A stretch of DNA of 64,000 nt from contig OY282379.1 of assembly GCA_958295875.1 (NCBI GenBank), forward strand, positions 2,232,001 through 2,296,000. The letters are read 5' to 3'. Shown one piece after another: positions 9,671 to 59,277 of this stretch. The notes below the pieces were generated by a model. It searched no databases. It was not told the DNA's origin and worked only from the letters and a program-made list of their open reading frames with translations. Each line of letters starts with the position of its first letter. Position 1 is the first letter of the stretch. This DNA comes from an uncultured Pseudomonadales bacterium (GTDB lineage: Bacteria; Pseudomonadota; Gammaproteobacteria; Pseudomonadales; Azotimanducaceae). A program made the translations under genes and the position numbers.

Positions 9671-9821
9671 ACGGCGAACGCGGGGTTCAAGCGAAGCGCA
9701 CTATGGTATGCGGGGTGGCCGTCCGCATGGCCTTGATGCGGCCGGTTTGCGCCCACCGTCCCGCGTGACATAGTGTCCCCGGAGCCGGCGCCGATTTGCG
9801 GCGTTGCCTGGAGGCCAGCTG

Positions 9822-10658: not shown

Positions 10659-10786
10659 GCGCCGCGGAGGTCTGCAGGCACCCGTCCGCGGAGTCTTGAA
10701 GCAGCCGGGTTGCGCCCACCGCCCCGCTTGATTTAGTGTCCACTGAGCCGACGCCGAAGTACGGCGCGCTGCCCGGAGCCCAGCCC

Positions 10787-11623
10787 ATGCAAGCCGCTCA
10801 TGCGCGAAGCGCAATTCCCACCCTTGGCAGCGACGCTGACCCGGATGCGCTGTACGCGACGCTTGCCGACGCTGGCTGCTTGGTCGTCACCGATGCGCTG
10901 CCGCTGGCTGAATGTCGGCGGATCGAGCGGGAGTTGGCGAGCGAAATGGATGTGGCCCGTGTGGTGGAGCAGGACGATCCGGCGCATTTCTATCCCGGCC
11001 GCACCCGCCGCGTCATCGGCCTCGTGAGCCGGTCCGAGACGGTGCGCGAAGTGATCCTGCACGACCTGTCGCGCGAGCTGTCTGAACGCCATCTGGGCGC
11101 CAACTGCGAGCGGGTTCAGCTGCACGTCACCGCCGCCCTCTCCATCGGCCCCGGCGCCCGCTCCCAGGTGCTGCACCGAGAGGAGGATTTGTTCCCGTTC
11201 TTCCCCGTGCCGCGGCCCAATCTCATTCTCGCCTCCATGTGGGCCATCAGCGACTTCACCGCCGACAACGGCGGCACCCTGCTGGTGCCGGGCAGCCACA
11301 CTTGGGGCGCGGAGCGTGAGGCGCTGCCAAACGAAGTGGCTTCTGCTGAGATGCCGGCCGGCTCAGTGCTCTATTGGCTGGGTGGCACCCTGCATGGCGG
11401 TGGCGCCAACACATCGAACGCTTGGCGCTACGGCATCATCCTCACCTACTCCTTGGGGTGGCTGCGCCAAGAGGAGAACCAATACCTAGACATTCCGCCA
11501 GAGGTGTTGACGACGCTGAAGCCGGAGCTGCAAGCGCTCACTGGCCATGTGATGCACGGCGGCCTTGGCTTCTCGACGGCGAACGTGGCGGAGGCCGTGG
11601 AGGCGGCGGCAGGGGCGTCTTGA
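10787..11623 (+). CDS. Phytanoyl-CoA dioxygenase (PhyH) family protein, copy 2
   Basis: 278 aa, the tandem paralogue of 9822-10658 with the same length and nearly the same motifs (LHREEDLFPFFP, GGTLLVPGSHTW, LHGGGAN, SWRYG changed to AWRYG). Start ATG 10787 (MQAAHA) mirrors copy 1. Differences cluster in the N-terminal third and in the loop after GSHTW (GAEREALPNE against RGERQALPSE), which could alter the substrate. 2-oxoglutarate/Fe(II) oxygenase, cytoplasmic. It has its own diverged copy of the upstream region, so the two genes may be independently expressed. Confidence 0.85.
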   Translation: MQAAHARSAIPTLGSDADPDALYATLADAGCLVVTDALPLAECRRIERELASEMDVARVVEQDDPAHFYPGRTRRVIGLVSRSETVREVILHDLSRELSERHLGANCERVQLHVTAALSIGPGARSQVLHREEDLFPFFPVPRPNLILASMWAISDFTADNGGTLLVPGSHTWGAEREALPNEVASAEMPAGSVLYWLGGTLHGGGANTSNAWRYGIILTYSLGWLRQEENQYLDIPPEVLTTLKPELQALTGHVMHGGLGFSTANVAEAVEAAAGAS

Positions 11624-25516: not shown

Positions 25517-25933
25517 TCACTGTGGCCAAGGATTGACGACTTCCACGCCGCTTGGCGCAAAGTCCTTGACGTTGCGTGTCATCACCGCCATTTCGTGATG
25601 CAGCGCCGTTGCCGCGATCAATCCGTCCGGGGCCGCGATGTGTTGCCCCCGTCGTTTGGCGCGGGCCGTGAGTTGCCCCCAAAGTCGGGCGATGGGCGCG
25701 TCCACTTGCAAGATGCGCTGACGGAAATCGTTTTGCAGCCGGTCCAGCCACGCGAAGAGATCCCGTTGGCGCTGCCCCGGGGCCAAGCCGTGTGCGCCCT
25801 TGTATATCTCGCCGATTGTGATGACGCTGATGAAGGCGCGATCGCCTAAGTCGACGACAGCCGATTTGACGCTGTGCTCGCCGTTTGGTTTGTGTGTTTC
25901 CGAGACGACGCAGGTGTCCAGCAGCGCCCTCAC
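25517..25933 (-). CDS. PIN-domain toxin (VapC/FitB-like RNase)
   Basis: 138 aa. PIN acidic residues are in place: D6 (LLDTCVVSE), E42 (ISVITIGEIYKG), D103 (AAPDGLIAATA) and D124 (TRNVKDF). The length and sequence are those of VapC/FitB RNases, which cleave tRNA or other RNA when not held by an antitoxin. No separate antitoxin gene precedes it. Instead its ATG overlaps by 4 bases the end of the large restriction-modification gene, whose last 35-40 residues look like an antitoxin tail. Confidence 0.85.
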   Translation of the reverse strand: MRALLDTCVVSETHKPNGEHSVKSAVVDLGDRAFISVITIGEIYKGAHGLAPGQRQRDLFAWLDRLQNDFRQRILQVDAPIARLWGQLTARAKRRGQHIAAPDGLIAATALHHEMAVMTRNVKDFAPSGVEVVNPWPQ

Positions 25934-28900
25934 AGTTCGATGTCGCGCATTGGGGAGCGGTCGCGCTCAAGGTCTAGCCCCTCGAACGAAGGGCCGCTCA
26001 TCAAATGCGCGATGAAGTCATCGTCTTCGATTCCTTCGGTATAGGCCGGACGATTGGACACAGTCGGCTCGCGCACGATCTTTTCCCGCCAATACGCGGT
26101 CGCCTCAGGGTCACGGCCTAGACAGGCCGCGGCCGCAGCGTCGAGCTCCGCACGAACCGGGCACTCATCCATCTGCGGCCAGGGCAGCAGCTCTGCCTTG
26201 CCGAGCCGTTGGAAGGCATCTTGCAGCGGCGTCAGGTCGCATTTCGCTGGGTCTGGCACGGGCAAGGATCGTAGCTGTTCCAACGAGTAGTCCGAGTAAT
26301 CCAGCGCTTTCTGTCGGCGGTTCAAGAACGACGCCACTGCCGGAGTGGAGTTCAGGTAGGCGCACCAAGCCTCAAGCGTCTCCGCAGGGGCGGAGATGTG
26401 TGGCAACGGCGTCACGGGAATGAAAGGCTGACCCAAAGCGGGGCGAGGGGCATGAATGGCGGACACTCGGACTCGGGAGGCTCTGATCTTGGCCGCAACC
26501 AGCATCCTGCTCGCCTTCGGCCACAACACGTCCGTTGCGTACTGCCGTTTGGTGGGCTTGGGTGCCGTGACGAAATCTGCAAAGGAACTCATCGTCCTGC
26601 GGCTGTTCGGCTTGTGCGTCCACACGACTGGGAACTTCGCGTCCGGTATGGGGTGGTCTAACGGGTTCACGAACGCATCCCGCAATCGTTGCCCGCCGGG
26701 TTCGACTAATGCCAAGTCTCCCAGCGGCGTGGTGGCGTCATGCTCATCGATGTAGCGTGCGAGGGCCGCCATGGTGCCGTCTAGGTATTGGCAGGGTGTC
26801 CAATCGCCGGCCGCCATGCGTTCGGCCGGCCAAACGTAGGCGCGATGCAGGCGGTGGTTCTCCCCGGCATGCACAGCCGTCACCCAATCGGCGGCCTCTT
26901 GGGCAGTTTGCGGCATGCGTGTGAGCGCGATGAAGGTGGTTGCTCGCTGCGGCGCGTTGGCGCCGCGGCGGCGGCAGATGAGGAGCGATTCGTGAATCGC
27001 CGTGTTGACTGAGAAGTTCGGGCGTTTCGGATCGTGGCTGGTGACGATGAAATCGATGTGGAAGCGCTCCGCCAAGAACCTCCGCTCGTCCACTCCCGAT
27101 GTGCTGGTGCAGGCCGTAGTGGGCAGAATCGTGCCGAGCACGCCTGCGTCCTTGTGCAGCAACGCATCCGCCAATGGGGTGAAGAGGGTCCGCACGCTGT
27201 TTGAGTCGATGAGGTATGAAGCGGCAGGGTCTGCCCCATGTATCTGGCGTTTGATTTCGAGTTTGCGTTGTTGAATCCCCTTCTTCGCGGCAGCGCTGAA
27301 CCGGCGCCCGTAGTGTTCATTGTTGGTGAATGGCGGGTTCATCAGGATCACGTCCATGCCGCGTATGTCTGGCACGTTGGCAACGGCGGATTCCCGCGTC
27401 GAAACCGCTGCCTGCTTAACGTGCCCCAAGAGGCTCAACTGCTCGCCGCCGCCGACGGCTGTCGGCAGCAGTTCAAGGCTGCCCAAAGCCACTGAGCCAT
27501 CGGGCTGCGGGCCGTGGCGCATGGTGTGGATGTGCATGGCTTCGTAGTCCACAGTGGGGGCGCCGAGCGTCAGGTTTGAGGCGGCGAGCTGCGTCGCTTG
27601 GTAGTTGATGTCCAAGCCTCGGATGGAATGCTCGACCAGCGCCTTGTGGGCTTGTCGCACTTCGGCCGGCGTCATCGGCTTGGCCGCCGCCATGTGGTCC
27701 TTGATGGTCTTGAGCGCGGCCATCAGCAGCGTGCCGGTGCCGCAGGCCGGGTCCAGAATGCGCAGCCCCGTCGCGTGCTGCCAATCCGACCAGTCCGCGA
27801 AGTTGGGGCCAAGCGCCAGCCCCGCAAGCATCAGCGCGGAGATGTTGTTGGTGTAGAAGGCGCCGTCACTGACGGCGCTGCCGAGGATCTTGTGGTAGAG
27901 CGGGCCAGCGTGGTCGTAGCCGAGTTCAGTGACGGCATCGGATAGGTTCACGGCGCACTCCGCCAGTATCCGCGCCGGCGCCTTGAGGCCGTCGAACGAT
28001 GGCGAGTTCTCGATGAGGGACAGTGCCGGGCGGAACACGGGCGCGTAGTCCTTGCCGAGGATTGCGTCCCAGGCTTCGGCGAGGCTCTCGGCTGGGGTGT
28101 GCGAGCGGCCGATCTCGATGAGGTCTGGCAGCCCTTCGAGCGCGGCGGATTCCTTCTGCAAACGCCGATGCAGCAAACAGGCGTTGCACAGCAAGAGCGC
28201 CGCGGTGGTGGACACTTCCCGATCTTTGACGCTGGTGAGGTCTAGGGCTTGGCGCAACGAGGCCATGAGTGCTGGGCTGTCTTCAATTCTCCTCGCCGCC
28301 AGCCCCACCGAGCGGACGATGTCGTCCGCCGTCACCTGGCCGGGGCGGCCTAGCCCAGAGGCAGCCACCACCTTGGCGAAGATGCCCGGCTCAACGGCTT
28401 GAAAGGCGAGGATGTCGCCAATGGCCGGGTACGTGGTGTCGTCGTCGCGCACTTCGCCGTCGCGGGCGCGGGCGGTAGGGGCGCGCTGGTTTCCGTTGGC
28501 TGTGCCGGTGTCGATCAGCACGTGTACAAACGTCGCTGGGGATTCCGCGAGCCGCTCATCATGCGATTGCAGCGCCCGCAGCACAGCGCCGATGTGTCGG
28601 TAATCGTCGCCTCGCTGTTGCAGCAATTCGGCGATGTCGCCCTCGCCTTCGGGCACGAACACTGGCACCACGATGTATCCGAAACGCTTGCCCTTGGCTT
28701 TGCGCATGACGCGGCCGACGGCTTGAACGATGTCGATTTGGCTCTGCTTCGGGTCTAGAAACGCCACGGCGTCTAGGGCCGGCACGTCCACGCCTTCAGA
28801 GAACACCTTCACGTTGCAGATCATCCGCGCTTGGCTCTTGCGGGGCGCGTCGTTCAGCCAGCGCCGCTCTTGGTTGCGCTGCAGCGCCGTGCTCTTGCCG

Positions 28901-30603
28901 TCCAAGTGGCGGGCTTCAAGGTCTGCGCGTTTGCCGCGGCCAGCCAGTGTGCGCGTGACGCGCTGTTTGAGGGCGAGGTTGCCGTTGATGGTGTCGCGGA
29001 ACCACTTGGAACGCTGAATCGTTGACGCGAAGGCGATGCTGCGGGGCAACGCGCTCGGCGTCTCGCCGCCTTCCACCGCGCCGTTCAAGGCCAGCATGGT
29101 TCCCAACAGACGGCAGAGATCTGTGTCCGACGCCCTCTTGGGCGCATTTTCGCCGGCAAGCGCGGCGCGGATGCCTGGCGTGAGCTGGCTTTCGCGGATG
29201 CCGAGCACGATCACGCGATAGTCCGAGAGCTCCCCGGCAGCGACGGCTTGCGAGAACTTGACGTGGTGGAGCAGCGGCCCGTACACATCCACATCCGACA
29301 TGTCCACCACGTTGTAGGCGAACCCCTTTCTTTCCGCGGCCCGCTCGGTGGCCCGCACCGACCTTTGCGTATACATGCGCTGCGTGGCAGTCATGTAGAG
29401 GCGCTTGCCAGCGTCGAGCTGCGCCGCATCGTGGAACGCTTGGAAATCCACCTCCTTGCCGGCGACGTCATCCCGAATGACGCCGGTGGTGCGATGGGCC
29501 TCGTCGGCAATGGCGAGATCAAAGCCCGGTGCGCCATGCCGCGCTTGGGCTTCACACACTTTGCCCAGGGAGTGGTAGGTGCAGAAGACGGCCTTCACGC
29601 CTCCGCTCGGGTTGCCCAGCCGCCGCGAGATGTCGGCCGGGTCTGACACCACGTCGCAGACCAGATCGTCCGCGCCGATCTCTTGGCGTTCGCCGCGCCC
29701 GCCGGCGGTGCTGTCTGAACACACCACCAGCGCGGACATGTCCCGCGTCCGGTGCGTCAGCCACTCGCGCCGCGCTTGGGACACTAGGGCGATGGTGGGC
29801 GCTGCGAACAGAATCCGCCCGTCGTCCGGCACGATGCGCTCGGAGAGCTTGAGCGCCGTGAAGGTTTTGCCGGTGCCGCAGGCCATCACCAGCTTGCCAC
29901 GATCGTTGCCTTGGGTGACGAGGCCGTCGTACACAGCGTCGATGGCTTGCTGCTGAAGCGGCTTCGGCTGCCGTTGCGCCGCGGGCCTTTGGAACTGGCG
30001 GATCTCGTGGTCCAGGAAATCCAGAAAGTCGATGCGGGCGACCCTCGGCACGCGGCCGGCGATGGCGCGCTCCGCGGCGGCATTCCATGCGCAGGTGGAA
30101 ACGATCCAACGCAGCCCGAAGGCTGGCCGCGAAGATTCGTTGAGGAAACTATCGATGTTTGGCTTGGCGATGATGGCTTCCGCCGCGTAGCACTTGCACT
30201 GGATGGCGATGACGGTGCCATCCATTTGCGTCGCCACGAGGTCGATGCCGTGGTCGCGGCCGTCGAGGCCAGTTAGCTGCTCGCGGTCTGGCCAGTCTCG
30301 CCATGGCCAGATTGCCGCCACGTCGAACTCGGGGTTGTCGCGCACGGTGGCCATGAAAAGGTGCTCGAACCAACGCCCCTTCTCGACTTCGCTGGAAGCG
30401 TCGCGGCGTATGCGTTCGAGCGCGTCGCCAACTCGTTCGCTGGGGCGCAGGTCTAGGTTGGTTTGGACAGTCACGCCCACGCATCCCGATTGTGGCGCCG
30501 AAGGCGGATTTGCGACGGGCGGGGAGTTGGACGAGGCCGTGCCCGGCCTCCCCGCGGCGCTGCTGGCCATCATAGCCGAACTCAAGCGGGTGAACCGGTT
30601 CAT
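25930..30603 (-). CDS. Single-chain restriction-modification enzyme, type ISP-like, with antitoxin-like tail
   Basis: 1557 aa from ATG 30603. Domains in order: Mrr-like nuclease (residues about 55-205; D121 in GIDLV and QCK at 135-137); superfamily 2 helicase (Walker A ACGTGKT at 241-247, DEAH at 367-370, GVDVPALDAVAF and QAVGRVMRKA later); coupler; N6-adenine methyltransferase (LDPACGTGTLL near 950, MNPPF near 1086); then a target-recognition region ending PTVSNRP. This order matches type ISP enzymes such as LlaBIII, and the length is similar. After PTVSNRP comes a tail, YTEGIEDDDFIAHLMSG to SPMRDIEL, that resembles the toxin-binding end of VapB/Phd antitoxins. The first four codons lie inside the IS end; GTG or ATG codons a little downstream (M11, M12, V42, V44) may be the original start. 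Confidence 0.87.
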   Translation of the reverse strand: MNRFTRLSSAMMASSAAGRPGTASSNSPPVANPPSAPQSGCVGVTVQTNLDLRPSERVGDALERIRRDASSEVEKGRWFEHLFMATVRDNPEFDVAAIWPWRDWPDREQLTGLDGRDHGIDLVATQMDGTVIAIQCKCYAAEAIIAKPNIDSFLNESSRPAFGLRWIVSTCAWNAAAERAIAGRVPRVARIDFLDFLDHEIRQFQRPAAQRQPKPLQQQAIDAVYDGLVTQGNDRGKLVMACGTGKTFTALKLSERIVPDDGRILFAAPTIALVSQARREWLTHRTRDMSALVVCSDSTAGGRGERQEIGADDLVCDVVSDPADISRRLGNPSGGVKAVFCTYHSLGKVCEAQARHGAPGFDLAIADEAHRTTGVIRDDVAGKEVDFQAFHDAAQLDAGKRLYMTATQRMYTQRSVRATERAAERKGFAYNVVDMSDVDVYGPLLHHVKFSQAVAAGELSDYRVIVLGIRESQLTPGIRAALAGENAPKRASDTDLCRLLGTMLALNGAVEGGETPSALPRSIAFASTIQRSKWFRDTINGNLALKQRVTRTLAGRGKRADLEARHLDGKSTALQRNQERRWLNDAPRKSQARMICNVKVFSEGVDVPALDAVAFLDPKQSQIDIVQAVGRVMRKAKGKRFGYIVVPVFVPEGEGDIAELLQQRGDDYRHIGAVLRALQSHDERLAESPATFVHVLIDTGTANGNQRAPTARARDGEVRDDDTTYPAIGDILAFQAVEPGIFAKVVAASGLGRPGQVTADDIVRSVGLAARRIEDSPALMASLRQALDLTSVKDREVSTTAALLLCNACLLHRRLQKESAALEGLPDLIEIGRSHTPAESLAEAWDAILGKDYAPVFRPALSLIENSPSFDGLKAPARILAECAVNLSDAVTELGYDHAGPLYHKILGSAVSDGAFYTNNISALMLAGLALGPNFADWSDWQHATGLRILDPACGTGTLLMAALKTIKDHMAAAKPMTPAEVRQAHKALVEHSIRGLDINYQATQLAASNLTLGAPTVDYEAMHIHTMRHGPQPDGSVALGSLELLPTAVGGGEQLSLLGHVKQAAVSTRESAVANVPDIRGMDVILMNPPFTNNEHYGRRFSAAAKKGIQQRKLEIKRQIHGADPAASYLIDSNSVRTLFTPLADALLHKDAGVLGTILPTTACTSTSGVDERRFLAERFHIDFIVTSHDPKRPNFSVNTAIHESLLICRRRGANAPQRATTFIALTRMPQTAQEAADWVTAVHAGENHRLHRAYVWPAERMAAGDWTPCQYLDGTMAALARYIDEHDATTPLGDLALVEPGGQRLRDAFVNPLDHPIPDAKFPVVWTHKPNSRRTMSSFADFVTAPKPTKRQYATDVLWPKASRMLVAAKIRASRVRVSAIHAPRPALGQPFIPVTPLPHISAPAETLEAWCAYLNSTPAVASFLNRRQKALDYSDYSLEQLRSLPVPDPAKCDLTPLQDAFQRLGKAELLPWPQMDECPVRAELDAAAAACLGRDPEATAYWREKIVREPTVSNRPAYTEGIEDDDFIAHLMSGPSFEGLDLERDRSPMRDIEL
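30586..30590. repeat. Putative target-site duplication, left copy (GCGGG)
   Basis: GCGGG directly left of the proposed IS end, matched by GCGGG at 31756-31760 directly right of it. Five bases is within the range reported for IS481-family insertions. Confidence 0.5.
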
Positions 30604-31755
30604 GACATCTGGCACTGAGGCTGGGCAGCCTCGTGGGCGACAAGGTACTCGTTGGGGGATCGGTAGTCGATTGCGGAGTGCGGTCGGATGTAGTTGTAGA
30701 AGAACTCGCGCTTGAGGAGCCTCTCGGAGACGGCCTCGACGGTGAGGTCGCAGTCGAGGAGGTTCCAGAACTCGATGCGGGCGGTGCGGTTGGCGCGCTC
30801 GACGCAGCCGTTCCACTGCGGCCGTCGCGGCGGCAGGACGCGCAGCGCGACGCCGAGGTTCCTGCAGGCGTCCTCGAAGCCGGCCATGAACTCGCTGCCG
30901 CCGTCGACCTGGACGGACTCCAGCGGCACGGGGAGGGCTTCGGCGACGACGGCGAGGAAGCGCGCTGCGGTGGCGGCGGTGGCGCGGGAGAAGGCGCGGG
31001 CGACCATGAACCGGCTGACGGGGCAGATGGCGCGGAACTCCTTGATGGAGCTGCCGTCGCGGGAGACGGTCATGTGGTCGATCTGGACGAGCTGGCCCGG
31101 GCGCTCGGCCTTGTCGCCGTATTTCCAGCGCCGCGCCCAGCCGTTGAACTTGCGGGGGCGCTTGGGCTTGGCCCGTCCTTCGCAGAGGCTGGCGGGGGGC
31201 ACGGTCCCGTCCGCGATGGCGCGCGAGAGGATGCGCCCGACGGTTGACGCGCTCAGCCGCAGGCCTTGGCGTTCGAGCATGCGCTGGATGGGCGCCTTGC
31301 CCATGAACGGGTGCTTGCGGCGCATGGCCATGACCGCCTTCACGTCGCCCGGCTTGCGCGCCGGGCGGCGGACGCGGCGCGGTCGGGTGGACTTCGGCGC
31401 GAGGCCGCGCTGGCCGCCGGCGGCCAGCGCGGCCTTCCACCGATACAGGGTGCGGCGGCTGACGCCGACCTCCCTCAAGGCGGCGCGCTCGGCGCAGCCG
31501 GCGGCGCGCAGCCCATCGAACCGGCGGATCGCCGACAGGCGCCCGCGGGCCTCGGCCGGCAGTTCGGCGTCGTCCACCCTGAAACTGCGGTACGATCTGA
31601 TCCGCATCGATTCGATTCGCATGGCTCGGGTCTCCACCAGTGACTTCGCATTCACTGAGGCTACCCGATCCGGCGCTGGCGGCGGGTTCCCGTCGCCAGC
31701 GCCACCTCACCCCGCCATCGGCTGGCGCAGTGCCATATCTATCTGAACCAGAACA
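30591..31755 (-). mobile_element. IS481-like insertion sequence (about 1165 bp)
   Basis: Contains one transposase gene and is bounded by imperfect terminal inverted repeats: left 30591-30617 (TGAACCGGTTCATG..., ending GGCACTG) and right 31728-31755 (inward TGTTCTGGTTCAGA..., ending GGCACTG). Shared blocks are TG, GGTTCA and GGCACTG. The ends are TG/CA and a 5-bp GCGGG duplication flanks them. It sits at the 5' side of the restriction-modification gene, and the transposase stop overlaps that gene's proposed ATG. The exact borders are my reading by eye; an alternative right end at 31786 (CTTCTGGACA) cannot be excluded. Confidence 0.65.
30600..31655 (-). CDS. IS481-like DDE transposase
   Basis: 351 aa. 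N-terminal helix-turn-helix (REVGVSRRTLYRWKAAL, residues about 62-78) and an rve/integrase core with the DDE residues in VQIDHMTVS, VQVDGGSEF and ERANRTARIEF, then FFYNYIRPHSAIDYRSPNEYL at the end, all typical of IS481/IS3-type transposases read as a single frame. Start could also be an internal ATG (MRIESM or MRIRSY). Looks intact. Its last bases (TGA at 30600-30602) overlap the ATG assigned to the restriction-modification gene. Confidence 0.85.
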   Translation of the reverse strand: MNAKSLVETRAMRIESMRIRSYRSFRVDDAELPAEARGRLSAIRRFDGLRAAGCAERAALREVGVSRRTLYRWKAALAAGGQRGLAPKSTRPRRVRRPARKPGDVKAVMAMRRKHPFMGKAPIQRMLERQGLRLSASTVGRILSRAIADGTVPPASLCEGRAKPKRPRKFNGWARRWKYGDKAERPGQLVQIDHMTVSRDGSSIKEFRAICPVSRFMVARAFSRATAATAARFLAVVAEALPVPLESVQVDGGSEFMAGFEDACRNLGVALRVLPPRRPQWNGCVERANRTARIEFWNLLDCDLTVEAVSERLLKREFFYNYIRPHSAIDYRSPNEYLVAHEAAQPQCQMS

Positions 31756-31766
31756 GCGGGTGAACG

Positions 31767-31831
31767 GGATCAGCACCTTCTGGACAGTGCCGCGCCCAAG
31801 GAACCCTTGGGCGCGGCGGTTCGGTAGCCTA
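31767..31831 (+). repeat. Dispersed repeat, copy A (65 bp) with perfect hairpin
   Basis: Begins GGATCAGCACCTTCTGGAC and ends GGTTCGGTAGCCTA. Copy B at 52336-52399 matches most positions, and copy C (48894-48919, opposite strand) matches 24 of 26 bases of the core. Inside copy A the arms gccgcgcccaagg and ccttgggcgcggc (13 bp each, AAC loop, 31788-31816) form a perfect hairpin with no T-run after it. The gap 31656-31993 otherwise holds only the IS right end and the leader of the next gene. Confidence 0.7.
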
Positions 31832-31993
31832 TGAGTTGAAAGACAACATGGGAGACCGAACAATCGCTCGATCCCAACGGCATGCCTATAGGACACTTCG
31901 GTAGTGACAGTCTTCTCCGCTCGACGTTTCCCCATCCTCTTTCGCAACTGCTGGAACACGACCGGCTTGGCTGACGCGATCAACGGCATCGAC

Positions 31994-32704
31994 ATGGATT
32001 CACTATGCAAGGAACTCGAAGAGTTGAAGGCGGCGGCGCCCAGCCGTCCCGACAGGGCCAAGCGCTACTTCGTCGGACACGAGAGACGACTGCCGCCGAA
32101 GGACTCCGGCAATCCCTCGGAGAAGCACCTGGCCATCGCCCTGCGGCGCCTGGAGATGCTGCACGCCCGCGCGGACGTCACCCAGGTTCGCCTTCTCGAC
32201 TACCAGTTTCCGTTGAAGGCGGCGCAATCGGACACGGGCCTAGGCGAGGTGGACCTGCTCGGCGTGACGGCTGACGGCCGCATCGCGATCGTCGAACTCA
32301 AGGTGAGGCGGAGAGACGGCGACCCGGGCGACACCCCGGTTCACGCCCTGATGGAGGGCCTGCGCTACGCCGCCGTGGTCCAGGCCAACATCGGCGCGAT
32401 CGCCGCCGAGGTCAGGCGCCTTTTCGCCATTGATGTGCCGGATCGGCCTCCTTTCGTGCAGATTCTGGCTCCGGAGGACTGGTGGCGCGGGTGGCACGAC
32501 ATGGTCCCTAGAACGCGCCGGAGGGCCGGACCTTGGGAGGTTCCGTTCCTCGACCTTGCAACCCGCGTGGAAGCCCGGCTCGGTATCGCAGTGGAATGCG
32601 CATCGCTCGGGGCTGCCGGCCTCGCCGATATCGCATGGGACGCCTGCGGGCCACTCCTTCTGCGCCCGCCCACCGTCTCCGGTGTCGCTCTTGACACGAG
32701 GTAA
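31994..32704 (+). CDS. PD-(D/E)XK nuclease-like protein, unknown family
   Basis: 236 aa from ATG 31994; an upstream start at 31904 would add 30 aa of unlikely sequence. The nuclease-like core is GLGEVDLLGVTADGRIAIVELKV: E85, D87 and E101-x-K103 fit a PD-(D/E)XK active site. A helical N-terminus precedes it (residues 1-60). The C-terminal half (WWRGWHDMVP and onward) I do not recognise. It is followed after 2 bases by a second gene with the same kind of motif. The pair lies between repeat copies A and D. Probable restriction or defence enzyme (inference). Confidence 0.7.
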   Translation: MDSLCKELEELKAAAPSRPDRAKRYFVGHERRLPPKDSGNPSEKHLAIALRRLEMLHARADVTQVRLLDYQFPLKAAQSDTGLGEVDLLGVTADGRIAIVELKVRRRDGDPGDTPVHALMEGLRYAAVVQANIGAIAAEVRRLFAIDVPDRPPFVQILAPEDWWRGWHDMVPRTRRRAGPWEVPFLDLATRVEARLGIAVECASLGAAGLADIAWDACGPLLLRPPTVSGVALDTR

Positions 32705-32706
32705 CG

Positions 32707-33672
32707 ATGCAACCCGTCGTCGACTACACCGGCTACGAAAGAGCCCTGCGCGGGCGTCTCTGGGAGTGGGCCGACCGTTACCATCGGGACGAACTCGATG
32801 GCGGCAGCCGGGACAGCCGCCCCCCAGTGCTCAATTCCGATGTGGCGAACAGCGCGGTGCTCGTGCCGTCCGACGCGGCTATGGCGCGCGACATCGTGGC
32901 CGCGCTTCCCAAGCGCGAGCGGCACCGGTGGTTCCGCAGCCTGAAGAGCTCCCAGGCGTTGGCCCAGAGCGTCTTCGGCGCGGTTGCCGCCTTTGGCCGG
33001 CTCGACCTGCTTGACGGCATCGCCGCGGAGTGCGGCCGGCCGGCATTTCTCGAAAGCGCGCGCGGCACATCCCTCGTCCTCGAGCACCGCGTCGGGACGC
33101 TGGGCGAACCGAGGGCGACCAGCGTGGACGTCCTCTTCCAAGGGTCTTCGCGGCGCGTCGCGATCGAATGCAAGTTCGCCGAGCGCGGGTACGGCACCTG
33201 TTCGCGGCCCAGGCTGAAGCCCGGCGACCCCACCTATCCCGAGCAGCACTGCGACGGCAACTACCAAGTGCAGCGGAACCGCAGTGAGCGCTGCGCCCTC
33301 GCGGAAATCGGGGTGCGGTACTGGGCCTACCTGCCGGATCTGTTCGAATGGGAGGCGGGCGGGGACCTGGTCCCCTGTCCGCTATCGCCGGTCTACCAGC
33401 TCGCCCGCAACGCGCTGGCGGCCACGGTGACCGGCGTCGGTTTCGACCCGACGTCGGGACATGTCCTTACCGTGTACGACGCGCGAAACCCCGAGTTTGC
33501 ACCCGGCGGCATGGCTTGGCGGCAGTACGACCCCGCGATCGCCGCGTGTCGAATACCGGGCCTCTTTCGCTGCGTGACCTGGCAGCGCGTCGCGGCCGCC
33601 CTGGCCGCAACACCCGAACTCGCGTACCTGACGGCGGGACTGGAAGGGAAGTACGGCATCGCGCCCCACTGA
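32707..33672 (+). CDS. Second PD-(D/E)XK-like protein, unknown family
   Basis: 321 aa, starting 2 bases after the previous stop. Core: RATSVDVLFQGSSRRVAIECKFAE with D141, E154 and K156, and a preceding Glu in EHRVGTLGEPR (E126), the arrangement of PD-(D/E)XK nucleases. After it come YQVQRNRSERCALAE and YQLARNALAA, helical stretches with conserved-looking polar residues. No known-family identification is possible by eye. Coupled to 31994-32704, so the two products probably act together. Confidence 0.72.
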   Translation: MQPVVDYTGYERALRGRLWEWADRYHRDELDGGSRDSRPPVLNSDVANSAVLVPSDAAMARDIVAALPKRERHRWFRSLKSSQALAQSVFGAVAAFGRLDLLDGIAAECGRPAFLESARGTSLVLEHRVGTLGEPRATSVDVLFQGSSRRVAIECKFAERGYGTCSRPRLKPGDPTYPEQHCDGNYQVQRNRSERCALAEIGVRYWAYLPDLFEWEAGGDLVPCPLSPVYQLARNALAATVTGVGFDPTSGHVLTVYDARNPEFAPGGMAWRQYDPAIAACRIPGLFRCVTWQRVAAALAATPELAYLTAGLEGKYGIAPH

Positions 33673-46653: not shown

Positions 46654-47661
46654 TCAGCCGGCGCGCAGCGTAGCGATGATGTCGGCGCGCTCCGCGTCTT
46701 CGATTGAATCGAAGCTGGCGGAGGTGCGGTCTGTAAAGCTGCCGTAGCGGTTGAGCATTTCCGCCGCCACGTCGCGCGGCTCGCCCACCACGGCGAAGGC
46801 GGCCAACACGTCGTCGTCGATGAGTTCGCCCATTTCCCGCCAACGCCCTTGCTTGGACATGGCGTTCAGCTCCGGTTGCAGGGCGCCGGCGCCGATGGAA
46901 TCCAGCACCCCCTTGTACGCCGGCGTCGAGCCGTAGAAGGCGAGGCGCTGCTTCGCTTGAGCCTTGCTGGCGGCGAACGCCTCCTCGGTGTCGCCCGTGA
47001 CGACGAAGTTGCCGTAGCAAATCTCGAAATCCTGCCGAGAACGTCCGGCCTTCGCCAAGCCGCGCTCGATGGCCGGCAACGTGACGGACTCGATGTACGG
47101 CAGCGTGGTGAACGGATGCAGGATGATGCCGTCCGCCACCTCGCCGGCCACCTCGGTCATCCCCGGGCCCACTGCGGCCAATGTCACCCGCGGCGGGCCG
47201 TGCTCGGTGTTGGTAGGGGTGAACGCCGGCGTCATCAGCGTGTGCCGGTAGTACTCGCCAACGTGCTGCAGGCGCTCCCCCTCGTGCCAAGCGTTCCAGA
47301 TTGCCCGCATCGCCAGCACGAATTCGCGCATTTGGCGAGCCGGGGCACCCCACGGCATGCTGAAGCGCTTGGTGATGTGCGGCTTGATCTGCGAGCCGAG
47401 GCCCACGGTAAGGCGGCCGCCGGAGTAGGCGTTCAGGTCATGCGCGATGCCAGCGACGATCATCGGCGAGCGGGCGAACGCCACCGCGATGGACGTGGCG
47501 AGGGTGAGCCGCTCGGTGTGCTCGGCGGCGAGCAACAGCGGGAAGAACGGATCGTGCGCTGTTTCCGCCGTGCGGGCGCCATCGTAGCCTAAGGCTTCGA
47601 GCTGCTTGGCGGCTTCGCCGACGCGATTCAGATTGGGCGCGAGGCCGGCATCCACTTTCAT
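46654..47661 (-). CDS. LLM class F420-dependent oxidoreductase (TIGR03617-like), paralogue 1
   Basis: 335 aa from ATG 47661 with AAGGAAAG upstream. Luciferase-like fold; MKVDAGLAPNL at the start, EALGYDGARTAETAHDPFFPLLLAA, LATSIAVAFARSPM, GGRLTVGLGSQIKPHITKRFSMPW and RVTLAAVGPGMTEVAGEVADGI mark the TIGR03617 group. Enzymes of the group use F420. A close paralogue lies directly upstream (47734) with the same order of motifs, 72 bases away. Confidence 0.9.
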   Translation of the reverse strand: MKVDAGLAPNLNRVGEAAKQLEALGYDGARTAETAHDPFFPLLLAAEHTERLTLATSIAVAFARSPMIVAGIAHDLNAYSGGRLTVGLGSQIKPHITKRFSMPWGAPARQMREFVLAMRAIWNAWHEGERLQHVGEYYRHTLMTPAFTPTNTEHGPPRVTLAAVGPGMTEVAGEVADGIILHPFTTLPYIESVTLPAIERGLAKAGRSRQDFEICYGNFVVTGDTEEAFAASKAQAKQRLAFYGSTPAYKGVLDSIGAGALQPELNAMSKQGRWREMGELIDDDVLAAFAVVGEPRDVAAEMLNRYGSFTDRTSASFDSIEDAERADIIATLRAG

Positions 47662-47733
47662 CGTGCTTTCCTTATCTCGTGCTTGCGCCCGATTTTCATG
47701 TTCGGGCCTTGTCTTGCGTTGCGGCGGCGGCGC

Positions 47734-48738
47734 TTAGGCTGCGAGCTCCGCCACGATGTTCGCCCGTGCTTCCTTGGGCAGGCCGCCATAGGCGGCGGAC
47801 GTCCGGTCCACGATGTCGCCGTAGCGTGCCTTGAAAGCGCGCGCGATCTTCGCGGGCTCCTCGATAATAGCGAACTCGCTGAGCATGTCATCCGAGATGA
47901 GGCCGGCCATCTCCGCCCAACGGCCTTGCTTGGACATCCTGTTGAGATCGCCCTGCATCTCGCCAACGCCAATGCTGTCCAGCACGGGTTTGTAGGCCGG
48001 CGTGGAGCCATAGAACGCGATTTGCTGGCGCGTCTGCGCCTTCGCGCGCTCCACCTCTTGCTCGTCTCGCCCCGTCACCACAAAGCAGGGGTAGCTGATC
48101 TCGAAATCGCTCCGCGCTTTGCCGGCCTTCGCAAAGCCCCGCTCCAAGGCGGGCAGCGTGGTCTCGCGCAAGTACTTCTCTGTGGTGAACGCATGCACGA
48201 TCACGCCGTCCGCCACTTCGCCAGCCACCTCCGTCATCAACGGCCCCACCGCCGCCAAGAACACCCGCGGCGCCCCATGCTCGGTATTGTCCGGCGTGAA
48301 GAATGGCGTCATCAGCGTGTGCTGATAGAACTTGCCGGTGAACTGCAGGGGTTCGCCCTTGTGCCAATTCGCCCAAATGGCGCGCATGGCGAGGATGAAC
48401 TCGCGCATCCGCGCTGCGGGATGCGACCACGGCATGCTGAAGCGCTTGGTGATGTGCGGGCGGATTTGCGAGCCGAGGCCGAGCACAAAACGCCCCGCCG
48501 AGGCCGCATTCAGGTCATGCCCGATGTTGGCGAGCACCATCGGCGTGCGCGCAAACGCGACGGCGATGCCGGTCATCAAGTCGATGCGCTGCGTGTCTTG
48601 CGCCGCGAAAGCCAGCGGCAAGAACGGATCGTGCGACGTTTCCGCCGAAAGAATGCCGCTGTACCCCATCTCCTCCAGCTCGCGCGCCTGCGCGCCAACC
48701 TTGGAAAGCTCCCAACCCACGCTGCCATCAACCTTCAT
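47734..48738 (-). CDS. LLM class F420-dependent oxidoreductase (TIGR03617-like), paralogue 2
   Basis: 334 aa from ATG 48736-48738 (MKVDGSVGWEL), which has GGGGAGGCGG before it and lines up with the start of paralogue 1; an ATG ten codons upstream exists. Shares with paralogue 1 EMGYSGILSAETSHDPFLPLAFAA, RPHITKRFSMPWSHPA and VADGVIVHAF. Two differently substituted copies in tandem suggest related substrates in one pathway. Confidence 0.9.
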   Translation of the reverse strand: MKVDGSVGWELSKVGAQARELEEMGYSGILSAETSHDPFLPLAFAAQDTQRIDLMTGIAVAFARTPMVLANIGHDLNAASAGRFVLGLGSQIRPHITKRFSMPWSHPAARMREFILAMRAIWANWHKGEPLQFTGKFYQHTLMTPFFTPDNTEHGAPRVFLAAVGPLMTEVAGEVADGVIVHAFTTEKYLRETTLPALERGFAKAGKARSDFEISYPCFVVTGRDEQEVERAKAQTRQQIAFYGSTPAYKPVLDSIGVGEMQGDLNRMSKQGRWAEMAGLISDDMLSEFAIIEEPAKIARAFKARYGDIVDRTSAAYGGLPKEARANIVAELAA

Positions 48739-48893
48739 CACCGCCTCCCCAGTAGAGTGTGCGGACATTGTATCGAAGCAGGACGATGGTGGGAGAAGGG
48801 CATAGAGAACGGCGGACGCCGGCTGACGCTTGCAAGCGGTAGTGCCGGTCGCCGGCGCCGCTGGGGCTGATCCTCACGATCCCAGCGTGTTCA

Positions 48894-48919
48894 GCGCGGC
48901 ACTGTCCAGATAGTGCTGA
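48894..48919 (-). repeat. Dispersed repeat, copy C
   Basis: On the reverse strand TCAGCACTATCTGGACAGTG followed by CCGCGC, matching copy A at 24 of 26 positions. It lies between the second LLM gene and the HsdR-N-like gene, at the point where base composition changes. Confidence 0.65.
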
Positions 48920-48988
48920 GGTCGCCCGTGGATTATCGAGTCTGTGGCACAATCAAGAGCGGTATCAGATGCGAGCCGCCGGAACCCC

Positions 48989-50128
48989 ATGACGAGTTTT
49001 CTTCCTGTCCATCAACCAGCCGTTGGCGAGGATAGGTTGCAATGCGAAGTACGAAACAAGAGTGTGAAGGCTACACCAGAGGAAGTTGTGCGTCAACGCG
49101 TGCTTCACTGGCTGATCCACAAACGTGGATGGGACCGTTCAAAGCTCCGCCTCGAAAAGAGCTACACATGGTTAACCGACCCAAATCGACATAGGATCAG
49201 GCCGGATATCGAGCTGCTCGACGAAGAGGACGCTGTGCTCGTAGTAGTGGAGTGCAAGCGGCCAGAGGTTCCTTTGAGCCAGCGCGTGGACAATCAAGCC
49301 ATCGAGTACGCCATCAAGTCAAATGCCCCGTACATCTGGGTAACCAACGGTGACAGTCACAAGTTTCTGCATCGTAGACGCGAGGGCGGTTGGCAGGACG
49401 TAAGTTCACTAGAACCTTTGGATATCTCTTTCGATCCGCCCAAGGTCGATATCGACTTTCCGGACACTGGGAAAGAAGCCGATATAGTACGCTACTTCAA
49501 GGAGCTCCGAGATCCTCAATTCCAAGGCTTCGAAGACAGCTGGAAGCGCCATTTCGTTTTGGCAATGCATAAGGTCTTGTTCGATACGGGGCACAAGCTT
49601 CCCTACACCCACGAAGGAGTTCACGTTCTAGAAGATCGAGGGACGGCTTTCCATGAGTTTACAAACAGAGGCGGTGGCTCATACTACAGTCGCTATCGAG
49701 ACTTCATTGCTGCGACCCAAGGTCGCGTTGAGGCATTGTCCGTGGCGGTGAACTGGTCCGTAACGGACAAGGGCAATGATAGGTTGGCACTCTGCGTTGG
49801 CGTATCGAAGGCAAACCGCGTACACCACGCCCTGCAGTTGATCGTCGATCAGAACCACGAGTACAACGACAGAAAACGATGTTGGGACATCTATCATAGC
49901 GGGCGCATGTCTAACGTTAAGGACGCGGTAGTCCTAGACGCTGTTAGGGAAGCTGCCGTAGGCCACTGGATCGATACATATGCAGGCGGAAGGCAGCGGA
50001 TGTATCTGGGCGGGCTACGGGCAGCGGACTTGGCAACTTGGAAGAACTCCAAGCGGTTCATCGCGAGATTGCTCCACTATGGAATCATCCGCACAAATCT
50101 CCGAGAAACCCTCACTTCGCGCAGATGA
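48989..50128 (+). CDS. HsdR N-terminal-like (HSDR_N) nuclease-domain protein
   Basis: 379 aa from ATG 48989; a start at 48944 would add 15 aa. Residues about 30-145 form a HSDR_N-type PD-(D/E)XK domain: RIRPDIELL (D73), VLVVVECKRPE (E88, K90), QAIEYAIKSNAPYIWVTNGDSH. Unlike HsdR there is no helicase part; the C-terminal 230 residues (THEGVHVLEDRGTAFHEF, YYSRYRDFIAATQG, VHHALQLIVDQNHEYNDRK) are unfamiliar and may sense or bind nucleic acid or protein. Codon use includes many AGA, ATA and TTA-type codons rare in neighbours. Stand-alone nuclease of probable defence role (inference). Confidence 0.75.
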   Translation: MTSFLPVHQPAVGEDRLQCEVRNKSVKATPEEVVRQRVLHWLIHKRGWDRSKLRLEKSYTWLTDPNRHRIRPDIELLDEEDAVLVVVECKRPEVPLSQRVDNQAIEYAIKSNAPYIWVTNGDSHKFLHRRREGGWQDVSSLEPLDISFDPPKVDIDFPDTGKEADIVRYFKELRDPQFQGFEDSWKRHFVLAMHKVLFDTGHKLPYTHEGVHVLEDRGTAFHEFTNRGGGSYYSRYRDFIAATQGRVEALSVAVNWSVTDKGNDRLALCVGVSKANRVHHALQLIVDQNHEYNDRKRCWDIYHSGRMSNVKDAVVLDAVREAAVGHWIDTYAGGRQRMYLGGLRAADLATWKNSKRFIARLLHYGIIRTNLRETLTSRR

Positions 50129-50324
50129 AGAGGGGCACCATAGGCAACGACAAGACCGAGCCGCCCGTTTTTTGGTCGATCGGATGCTGGTATAGGTGGA
50201 TGGGGTGTTGGGGAACGTCTGGGCTGGGGGACCCTGTGAGGTGCTGGACGAAGCGCCGGACGTTTACGGTGCTGTGCGCTTCGAGTAGCTCCCGGACATG
50301 TCGCGCTCGCACTTCGTCTCAGAA

Positions 50325-50801
50325 CTAGTCGCCCGGTTGGACCGCGAAAATGCGGATGAGTTGCTCACGAACTCGGCGCGCGGAACTTCGGGTTAGGGAC
50401 AGATGATCTGCTAAGCGTATAACTGCGTGCGCTTGGAAGGCCACTTGTCCGTCATCCACCACACAAAATACCCGTGCACTATTCTTGCGAATAGAGCGAA
50501 TAGTCTTTGTTTCGGCCATAGCCATACCCTTGATCCGGTTGGCGCCCGTGCTACCGATGAAGGCATCCACACGTTCTTGGACCTCCTTACGAGTCATGTA
50601 GTCCAAGCGCGCTACTGACAAACCGCCGCGGCTGCGATCTAGAAAGTCCCGCACTGGTAGGGCGGCCGGCGTCAGGCTGCCATCCTCCGCCAGATGATCG
50701 CTCCGCCAGATAAACCTCGCCAGCATCTCCTTGTCATGCACGATTCCAGGTGAATGAGTGCTCTGCGGCTGTTGCTCCTCAATACACTCTTCCATGTACA
50801 T
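50325..50801 (-). CDS. Hypothetical protein, third gene of three-gene cassette
   Basis: 158 aa. No family recognised. Mostly helical with many charged residues; YMTRKEVQERVDAFIGSTGANRIKG in the middle (here in pieces YMTRKEVQERV and IGSTGANRIKG), AVIRLADHLSLTRSSARRV near the end could be a helix-turn-helix-like segment (RLADHLSLTRSSARR). It overlaps the gene upstream by 23 bases (50779-50801), so expression is coupled. Lower GC than the surrounding chromosome. Confidence 0.7.
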   Translation of the reverse strand: MYMEECIEEQQPQSTHSPGIVHDKEMLARFIWRSDHLAEDGSLTPAALPVRDFLDRSRGGLSVARLDYMTRKEVQERVDAFIGSTGANRIKGMAMAETKTIRSIRKNSARVFCVVDDGQVAFQAHAVIRLADHLSLTRSSARRVREQLIRIFAVQPGD

Positions 50802-51372
50802 CCGTTCCGAACACGTTGCGCAACCTAGGCATTGTCCTCACGATGTCGCGAGGTAGCGAAAGTCCGCTGAATTGAATCGAAGCGTCCGAGTCTACGCCCT
50901 CTGCGTCGGCTGACACATAGTAGTGGATCATGCCGTCTCCAACGAAACCGATATCAATGAACAACCCATCTTGGCGCCAGAAGAAGTTCACTTCGCCGTC
51001 GTCAGCCAGTGCGACTTGCGGCAAGATGGCGGTGGCTGGGACCAGATCGATGAACTTCAAGGCGTCGTTAACGGCCTGGCCTATAGACGAGCCATTAGGT
51101 TCTGCTAAGTAAGAAAGAACCTGCATGCGCAGGTCTGACTTTCTATCCGTGTCCCGTTGACTGACGTTGGAGCCGATCAACCATGGCCGTCCAGCGAAGC
51201 TGGTGTCGAACGGTGAAGTAGGGACCACGAACCGGTAAATGGCCACGTCTCGTGCTCCCGGCTCGCTCACGGCACCGATGCCGAGCGTTGTGCGGATGTT
51301 CGACGGCAAGTTCTTGGCAGTGTATGGCCAAGGATCGGCGGTGGTGTTACGCCGCTCAGAGCTAGTCAGCAT
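50779..51372 (-). CDS. Hypothetical protein, second gene of three-gene cassette
   Basis: 197 aa, family not recognised. The C-terminal half looks like a small beta-rich domain: PQVALADDGEVNFFWRQ, GLFIDIGFVGDGMIHYYVS, then DIQF-like SIQFSGLSLPRDIV. The order DGEVNFFW / DIGF..G.IHYY resembles uncharacterised proteins that often accompany TIGR04255 partners, as far as I can recall. It overlaps the first gene by 11 bases (51362-51372) and the third by 23. No catalytic motif visible. Confidence 0.7.
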   Translation of the reverse strand: MLTSSERRNTTADPWPYTAKNLPSNIRTTLGIGAVSEPGARDVAIYRFVVPTSPFDTSFAGRPWLIGSNVSQRDTDRKSDLRMQVLSYLAEPNGSSIGQAVNDALKFIDLVPATAILPQVALADDGEVNFFWRQDGLFIDIGFVGDGMIHYYVSADAEGVDSDASIQFSGLSLPRDIVRTMPRLRNVFGTDVHGRVY

Positions 51373-52237
51373 TCAGGTTGATCCGTCGTGCCATTTCCGC
51401 CGTCAGAAACTCGGCCAACAGAGTCTTGCTAGCGTTGTGTAGATGGTTGAATAGATCATCTACCAAGGAGTCTGGCTCCGCAAACACGCCCTTAAGGTTA
51501 GGTGTGTCCCGCAGGTCGAAACGATGATGCGTATTGAACCACACTTGGTACTGCTCGTCCTGACCCGCCGAGTTAATGTGCATGCGTTGCAAAATGCGCC
51601 CTGCGATGGGGCTTGACGGGTCTACGTACCACCCCTGATTAAGGTGCCAGATTGGGCCGCGCTCGAAAATGCGCGGCGGCACCAAAGTGCTCTCCTTCAG
51701 AAGAGTCCGTGCATCGTAGTGATCATCGCCCGTCCATCGGAACACGTCCCAATACTCTAGGACGACTGATTGGATCTGTTGGGCCTGCGAGTGCAGAACC
51801 TCAGCAACGTCCGCAAAGAGCCTCCGTGCAGTGCTCCAGACTTCCTCCCAGCCCGCGTACGAGCCGCAATTGACCACCAGCGCACTGGCATCCAGCAGCA
51901 ATCGCCACTCTGCGCCACCATCGGCCCTGAAGCGTGTGAAGGCTAATGGCGGCATGGGCGGTGGCGGCAGGTCTGCGCCGGGCGCTGCAACGGCGATATT
52001 GAAGGCACCTTCCTCCTGCAGGCCCGGCAGGAGCGCTTGCCACTTCGAGTGAGCGGCCCTTACGCTGCTGCGGTCGTCGTATGTGAATCCGTCACGGCCA
52101 ACCACGGCCAACACGACCTCCGTGATCGCGTGGGTCTCATTGCAGGGCTCGAATGCCAATGTCGTACCTCCAAGACGGGAACCGCTGAGGTCAAAACGCG
52201 AAAGCCAGCCAGCAATGTGTGCGATGGGAGCCGTCAT
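51362..52237 (-). CDS. TIGR04255-like family protein, first gene of three-gene cassette
   Basis: 291 aa from ATG 52235-52237 (MTAPIAHIAGWL); an ATG five codons upstream (52252) is an alternative. Features fitting the sporadically distributed TIGR04255 family: NETHAITEVVLAVVG near the start, a long beta-rich middle (VVLEYWDVFRWTGDDHYD) and the ending FNHLHNASKTLLAEFLTAEMARRI, where a Leu-His-x3-Lys helix is characteristic. Members are found near defence and mobile genes; no function is established. Identification is by pattern memory, hence moderate confidence. Confidence 0.65.
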   Translation of the reverse strand: MTAPIAHIAGWLSRFDLSGSRLGGTTLAFEPCNETHAITEVVLAVVGRDGFTYDDRSSVRAAHSKWQALLPGLQEEGAFNIAVAAPGADLPPPPMPPLAFTRFRADGGAEWRLLLDASALVVNCGSYAGWEEVWSTARRLFADVAEVLHSQAQQIQSVVLEYWDVFRWTGDDHYDARTLLKESTLVPPRIFERGPIWHLNQGWYVDPSSPIAGRILQRMHINSAGQDEQYQVWFNTHHRFDLRDTPNLKGVFAEPDSLVDDLFNHLHNASKTLLAEFLTAEMARRINLNAD

Positions 52238-52335
52238 GGCTAAGGCGCCCAACCTGCCCGATCAACCAAGGGCCCGCCGTTTCGGGCTCGCGGAGAGTGT
52301 ATGGCTGCTGGTGTGGACTGGTCAACCGTCTGTTC

Positions 52336-52399
52336 GGATCAGCACCTTCTGGACGGGCCGCGCCCGAGGAGTTTCGGGGCGCAGTGGTTCGGTAGCCTA
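52336..52399 (+). repeat. Dispersed repeat, copy B (64 bp)
   Basis: Starts GGATCAGCACCTTCTGGAC, ends GGTTCGGTAGCCTA like copy A, and contains GCCGCGCCC in the same place, but the perfect hairpin of copy A is degraded. It lies between the three-gene cassette and the M16 protease gene end; the rest of the 52253-52446 gap shows nothing else. Confidence 0.7.
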
Positions 52400-52446
52400 C
52401 GCTGTGCGGCCGCGAGGCCGCCCAATGCCACGCTCGCCACGGTCAC

Positions 52447-58859: not shown

Positions 58860-59277
58860 GCGCAAACCCTACCACCGTGGGCAATGTGCGGGCATCAGTG
58901 GAGTGGGGCCAGATGGAAGCGAGATGGAAGCGGGACAGGCACCTCCACGGAACAGGAACGACGCGGAAGGGGACACGCGGAAGGGGACAGGCACCGGAAC
59001 GCGACGGACAAGCGGGACAGGCACCGACGACCAAGCGGGCGCGTGGCTAACGGCAGACGGAAGTGGGACAGGCACTTCCACGACGCGGAAGGGGACAGGC
59101 ACCGGAGATGGAAGCGGGACAGGCACCTCCAAGGAATAGGAACGACGCGAAAAGGGACCGACCGGGACGGCCAACGAACACCGAAGCGGGACAGGCACCC
59201 CATGCCTGCCGCCCCGCGCAGCACCGCCGATTCCATGTAAAGTTGCCCACATCATGTGACACCGCGAGGAACCCGCC
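58860..59277. other. Intergenic stretch filled with inverted GTGCCTGTCCC elements
   Basis: 418 bp between divergent genes; reading frames here have repeat-derived composition and are not supported. At least six copies of GGGACAGGCAC are present. A longer unit of about 48 bp beginning GATGGAAGCGGGACAGGCAC occurs at about 58924 and again at about 59108, showing local duplication. Confidence 0.75.
58932..59200 (-). repeat. GTGCCTGTCCC repeat cluster 3 (reverse orientation)
   Basis: GGGACAGGCAC on the plus strand at about 58932, 58984, 59014, 59065, 59093, 59117 and 59190, at irregular intervals, often preceded by GGAAG or GAAGC. Spacers repeat the words GGAACGACGCGGAAGG. No flanking genes for repeat processing (no cas, no RAYT transposase) are in the window. 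Confidence 0.75.

Follow-up and report, generated by a model that had tools for sequence, protein, structure and literature searches.

The 64,000-nt window analysed here (contig OY282379.1, positions 2,232,001 to 2,296,000, assembly GCA_958295875.1 of an uncultured Pseudomonadales bacterium), part of a complete 3.75-Mb genome, carries three overlapping genes at 50325-52237 that encode a TIGR04255 protein and two smaller proteins, called here open reading frames (ORF) 2 and 3. We consider, with about even confidence, that they form a tripartite toxin-antitoxin (TA)-like module. It lies, as cargo, next to an HSDR_N nuclease in a variable spot between insertion-sequence (IS) ends. Three lines of evidence carry this reading. 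Comparison of gene orders showed that TIGR04255-ORF2-ORF3 is conserved in many bacterial phyla as an operon of overlapping genes. The third gene, judged by a predicted fold, probably encodes an ADP-ribosyltransferase (ART)-like toxin. In other TIGR04255 loci, profile matches showed the third position to be taken by YhaV or PIN RNase toxins.

Conservation of the TIGR04255 operon

An earlier note on this DNA had proposed that the three genes make up a system of their own. A family search of 369 genomes belonging to the window's class found TIGR04255 in 34 (~9%), and about one third of 40 such loci taken for comparison continue with ORF2-like and ORF3-like genes, the window ORF2 falling in a cluster of 11 genes situated directly behind TIGR04255. 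Scanning genome contigs with the TIGR04255 alignment alone gave a wider set of 80 loci. Groups given in the record titles include Pseudomonadota, Nitrospirota, Planctomycetota, Acidobacteriota, Chloroflexota, Bacteroidota and Spirochaetota; most of the records are metagenome-assembled genomes, for which single taxon assignments may be wrong. TIGR04255, ORF2 and ORF3 follow each other in this order on one strand in 48 of the 80 loci, which bears out the proposal, and the first two genes share a 4-bp overlap of the ATGA type in 41 of these 48 triples. The ORF2 and ORF3 models match nowhere else among the 4,356 ORFs of the 80 loci. Adjacent, overlapping and co-inherited small genes, as in type II-like TA modules, are thus present in these 48 loci.

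The window proteins are divergent members of their families (about 15-25% identity). A single-protein search detected no close relatives of ORF2 in the 369 genomes, plasmids and phages, and profiles were therefore needed. Hidden Markov models (HMMs) built from the 80 loci without the window proteins recognize the window ORF2 and ORF3 with the E-values given in Table 1, all shuffled decoys staying above 1. Some circularity, though limited, enters this test, since HMMs that included the window proteins had first been used to mark the loci. Profile searches of genomes with ORF2 and ORF3 recovered more adjacent triples outside the training set (G230, G388), and three IMG/VR contigs carry the full triple. 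Neither ORF2 nor ORF3 has a credible match in Pfam, NCBIfam, PADLOC or PHROGs, and a search of the PDB by sequence gave no match. Weak hits of these two proteins to PPOX (0.016), RelE-like (0.082) and TLP1_add_C (0.18) were taken as noise.

The three genes can also occur without each other, a possibility raised by the earlier note that holds in part: TIGR04255 is found with other pairs of partners, and once (L132) ORF3 follows a protein in which the ORF2 domain is joined to a different N-terminal partner, with prophage-like genes alongside. These cases look like module exchange. At one of the 48 triples (L145:8001-9245), TIGR04255 and ORF2 are naturally fused into a protein of 414 aa, and ORF3 follows.

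Predicted fold of the ORF3 family

An ORF3 relative from locus L144 was modelled with AlphaFold2 at high scores (predicted local distance difference test, pLDDT, 97.3; predicted template modelling score, pTM, 0.89). When this model was compared with known structures by VIA-align, ranks 1-23 were all ARTs (Z 8.8 to 3.7); ranks 24-27 included one protein of unknown function (rank 24), the others again being ARTs with Z down to 3.5, and the first plainly unrelated proteins appeared at Z 2.8. The best match is Tpt1/KptA (Z 8.8, 2.8 Å over 92 residues; range of Tpt1/KptA entries 8.8-6.8), below which come the AvrPphF ORF2 fold, VPA0770, the TA-pair toxins RES and ParT, and classical ART toxins. An ART fold is predicted with high confidence for the ORF3 family, which has a compact core of ~124 residues. 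Three residues conserved in the family, Arg, Ser and His, are all found in the window ORF3 (R29, S62 and H125), and we infer that they correspond to the ART triad.

Exchange of the third gene

At locus L075 the triple consists of TIGR04255, a 129-aa gene and YhaV (6.8e-46). PIN proteins occupy the third position in three TIGR04255 loci without ORF3, and DUF7689 does so in three. No ORF3 homolog exists at the YhaV and PIN loci, so that known toxin families are present in the same slot of related cassettes (YhaV at one locus, PIN at three). The second gene changes along with the third. Its product has a charged tail at two of the PIN loci, L066 and L083 (DEIARRRGE and DELRHRRGG), reminiscent of the tails of many antitoxins. 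Different cassettes can coexist in one genome, as in G148, where one of three TIGR04255 loci is associated with PIN and two with ORF3.

A second common cassette, seen in cyanobacteria (L172, L176, L177, L205, L210) and at other loci, is composed of TIGR04255, a gene of 96-97 aa and a gene of 178-180 aa with an LTQSCDL motif.

The TIGR04255 protein

The TIGR04255 identity proposed earlier for the first gene is upheld by NCBIfam (Table 1), by a marginal match covering positions 60-252 of 252; a type-I-clade HMM does not detect the window protein. The model of the L144 TIGR04255 protein (pLDDT 93.5) resembles the saddles of TATA-binding protein (TBP) by Foldseek (E 5.8e-4, TM-score about 0.3-0.4), and by VIA-align the catalytic domains of guanido kinases (Z 8.8), with TBP at 7.1-7.2. 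These resemblances are too weak to give TIGR04255 a function. The protein has no Pfam match up to E=1, thus none to SecB; SecB is also absent from the fold matches shown, which does not exclude it. The Panacea domain (DUF4065) was likewise not found, Pfam giving no match for the TIGR04255 protein or ORF2 and an insignificant one for ORF3. A literature search found no mention of TIGR04255, although it covered few subscription papers and is not proof that the family is undescribed.

Proposed mechanism, related systems and alternatives

ORF3 would be a toxin using NAD to modify a cellular target, as the fold predicted for its family suggests. ORF2, which varies with the third gene, would be its direct neutraliser, and TIGR04255, the constant partner, could act as a chaperone or sensor holding ORF2 or the ORF2-ORF3 complex inactive. 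Titration or loss of TIGR04255 would then release the toxin. The module would then follow the logic of toxin-antitoxin-chaperone (TAC) systems, CmdTAC being one example, but around a hub lacking detectable relationship to SecB.

In CmdTAC, capture of the chaperone by a phage capsid protein frees an ART toxin (PMC11618068). The window cassette shares with TAC systems, especially CmdTAC (PMC11618068; also PMC5105189), three adjacent genes with a variable toxin and one constant partner, and the ART nature of CmdT is paralleled by the predicted fold of the ORF3 family. It differs in that TIGR04255 has no SecB match in Pfam, ORF2 and ORF3 match no known family and the order is hub-ORF2-ORF3. As the SecB feature is not found by sequence, we do not class the cassette as TAC. 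The hyperpromiscuous Panacea (PanA) antitoxins (PMC8832971, PMC10440598) likewise place one constant domain beside many unrelated toxin families, but the constant part is here a separate gene of another family, and the second small gene changes with the toxin. With the ART-fold toxins of RES-Xre, ParST and DarTG the likeness is the predicted fold of the third gene, RES and ParT being among its structural matches; the conserved set is however R/S/H and not the usual one, partners of the Xre, ParS or DarG kind are missing, the compact core has ~124 residues and no sequence similarity was found. Finally, the toxins of PrlF-YhaV and VapBC (PIN) type II systems are the same families as in the third position of other TIGR04255 cassettes, whereas PrlF or VapB antitoxins were not seen there, TIGR04255 and a small gene standing in their place.

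Several observations weigh against the TA-like reading. The window copy of TIGR04255 escaped the genome-wide family search, although hmmscan puts it above the cut-off. The structures are those of the L144 relatives, from which the window proteins diverge. Foldseek placed KptA first for the ORF3 model with an E-value of only 0.088, and a profile-profile comparison of the ORF3 family with a KptA alignment of 5 sequences gave no support (hhalign probability 0.1), so that the ART assignment holds at the level of the fold only. The third conserved residue is His, where the usual ART sets R-S-E and H-Y-E have Glu, which makes catalysis by ORF3 uncertain. Moreover, most third genes at the loci without ORF3 are of unassigned kinds and not recognised toxins.

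Part of this evidence could suit a module with a regulatory or housekeeping role and no toxicity. ORF3 would then be an ART-fold ligand binder lacking transferase activity, and TIGR04255 would bind nucleic acids or have a regulatory function, with a TBP-like saddle. The His in place of Glu, the unassigned third genes of most other cassettes and the TBP-like Foldseek match would be in line with it. The sporadic distribution of TIGR04255, the presence of several different cassettes within one genome and the replacement of the third gene by YhaV and PIN toxins speak against such a module, and we regard it as unlikely.

The earlier note had viewed the locus as perhaps a defence module. A three-component anti-phage defence, in which TIGR04255 would sense a phage product and license the ART-fold effector, differs from the TA-like reading mainly in purpose and is compatible with it; as a separate explanation we give it a rather low probability, slightly above that of the regulatory module. 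CmdTAC, with its ART toxin, acts as an anti-phage defence (PMC11618068), the locus lies in a variable spot filled with other nuclease cargo in a close relative (see below), the L132 variant is accompanied by prophage-like genes and the IMG/VR contigs carry the triple. Nevertheless, the three cassette proteins have no match in PADLOC, and the flanks of the 48 relatives hold mostly housekeeping or unrelated genes with scattered type I S subunits and similar defence matches. These flanks were counted without a matched baseline and display no clear enrichment in defence genes, for which reasons the survey is not used as evidence. The TA-like reading fits better than a defence module.

TIGR04255 has no assigned function, and the operon, the ART fold and the toxin exchange make its function concretely and cheaply testable. 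If the TA-like reading is true, the cassette would represent a second kind of three-part TA system beside TAC, and ORF3 a new family of ART-like effectors with an unusual set of conserved residues. More broadly and more tentatively, at somewhat less than even confidence, a large and so far undescribed class of three-part TA or defence modules might have TIGR04255 as its common hub. Their effectors would be exchangeable, among them YhaV, PIN, the new family with a compact ART fold and several families without assignment, and the hub would serve as a chaperone or sensor unrelated to SecB whose fold resembles TBP or guanido kinases.

A variable cargo spot

The ORF positions agree with the four genes described earlier, including overlaps of 11 bases (TIGR04255/ORF2) and 23 bases (ORF2/ORF3), and the GC drop noted inside the segment is confirmed: 53-58% across all four genes versus ~61-71% in the rest of the window (Table 1).

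Table 1. Features of the cargo segment and of the related insertion sequence (positions in the window)
Feature	Coordinates	Strand	Remarks
Variable cargo segment	48796..52428		no similarity to G002 between these points; GC drop
Repeat copy C, solo IS end	48894..48919	-	24/26 identical to copy A; IS-interior side points left, out of the cassette
HSDR_N_2 (PD-(D/E)XK type) protein	48989..50128	+	379 aa, C-terminus of 230 residues; Pfam 9.9e-19
ORF3, gene 3 of the cassette	50325..50801	-	158 aa; proposed toxin, family with predicted ART fold; independent HMM E=5.3e-6
ORF2, gene 2 of the cassette	50779..51372	-	197 aa; proposed antitoxin/adaptor; clusters with genes directly behind TIGR04255; independent HMM E=5e-6
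TIGR04255 protein, gene 1 of the cassette	51362..52237	-	291 aa; NCBIfam TIGR04255 32.6 bits, cut-off 30; proposed shared chaperone/sensor
Repeat copy B, solo IS end, ~60 bp	52339..52400	+	83% over 65 bp to copy A; IS-interior side points right, out of the cassette
rve/IS481-like transposase next to copy A	30600..31655	-	rve_3, HTH_32, weak LZ_Tnp_IS481
Repeat copy A	31770..31795	+	adjoins the transposase gene

In the close relative G002, DNA similarity ends at 48795 and resumes at 52429, and the flanking genes are near-identical (98% for a luciferase-like gene, 97% for an M16 peptidase). Between them G002 holds none of the four window genes; its 1.3 kb (L232:1614-2916) encode a DUF433 protein and a 261-aa T5orf172 protein, which is of the GIY-YIG type. 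Since other genes lie there between near-identical flanks, the position is a variable cargo spot. The comparison supports transfer of the segment. The search for an empty site, suggested by the earlier note, thus succeeded as to the absence of the four genes, but the G002 site is filled by other cargo. Elsewhere, G002 has a lone TIGR04255 gene (L028:7199-8140), 30% identical to that of the window and without ORF2 or ORF3. On the left flank, at 46654-48768, are two tandem luciferase-like monooxygenase paralogs whose proteins are 61% identical; genomes of the genus have 16-34 matches each.

The HsdR-N-type identity of the nuclease is secured by Pfam (Table 1). Of 292 other genomes in the class, 5 encode relatives, all weak and partial and limited to the N-terminal domain. 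One broader relative, matched over 82% of the length, is encoded without the cassette by a Hymenobacter canadensis plasmid (NZ_CP114769.1), and with such stand-alone proteins the nuclease shares the HSDR_N_2 domain. It also shares an HSDR_N nuclease domain with type I HsdR, from which it differs by the lack of a helicase part (no helicase domain by Pfam in the 379 aa) and of hsdM and hsdS neighbours, the adjoining genes being the cassette and a luciferase-like monooxygenase. Nothing ties it to the cassette relatives, and it looks like a separate passenger. Consequently, of the transferred unit proposed earlier there remains a variable block without counterpart at the same site in the close relative, and membership of the nuclease finds no support.

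The flanking insertion-sequence ends

Copies C and B of a repeat do face each other across the segment, as first reported. Matches of the quality seen between copies C and A are expected by chance not at all; copy B contains an indel relative to the repeat, its similarity nonetheless running over ~60 bp. Thirteen copies of the 26-mer exist in the genome at three mismatches or fewer, and none of a reversed-pattern control. Four of these loci (L005-L008) share up to ~1.07 kb rightwards from the repeat, and L002 and L004 share 1.23 kb (99.4%) leftwards, both stretches containing rve-type transposase sequence. The 1.07-kb type is bounded by terminal repeats, TGAACGGGATCATCACCTTCTGGACA and, inverted, GGGATCAGCGACCTTCTGGACAT. 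The transposase beside copy A has an identical second copy in the genome (L018). The dispersed repeat forms the end of an rve/IS481-like insertion sequence, other copies of which carry a transposase; the presence of the repeat at the flanks therefore stands, with its nature corrected to IS ends, and so is corrected the statement that no transposase is seen, one of the matching kind lying 17 kb away. The near relative G002 has 12 copies of the 26-mer, none at the cassette site, and five other congeners have none.

With both repeats placed just inside the boundaries of the segment absent from G002, and GC low over all four genes, one might imagine that all four genes, with the nuclease among them, make up a single functional unit that moved as a composite transposon. 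The nuclease is however convergent to the operon, its one broad relative lies on a plasmid without the cassette, and the repeats, of which each genome has 12-13 copies, are solo IS ends. Because only such ends flank the block (at 48894 and 52339), the transposase-bearing copies being elsewhere, we rejected this explanation as highly improbable.

A second island-like block, at 25933-33672, lies beside the same repeat (copy A). It comprises, in order, a 1522-aa fusion of Mrr_cat_2, ResIII helicase and N6 methyltransferase (restriction-modification type), the insertion sequence with copy A and a REase-ARP (PF22558) protein at 32707-33672.

Other repeats in the window

An Rfam scan of 28000-56000 gave no match. 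An imperfect-repeat cluster around GCGGGACAGGCACC is located at 58908-59199, and a direct duplication of 300 bases, 88% identical with an extension 80% identical, links 9719-10100 and 10682-11065.

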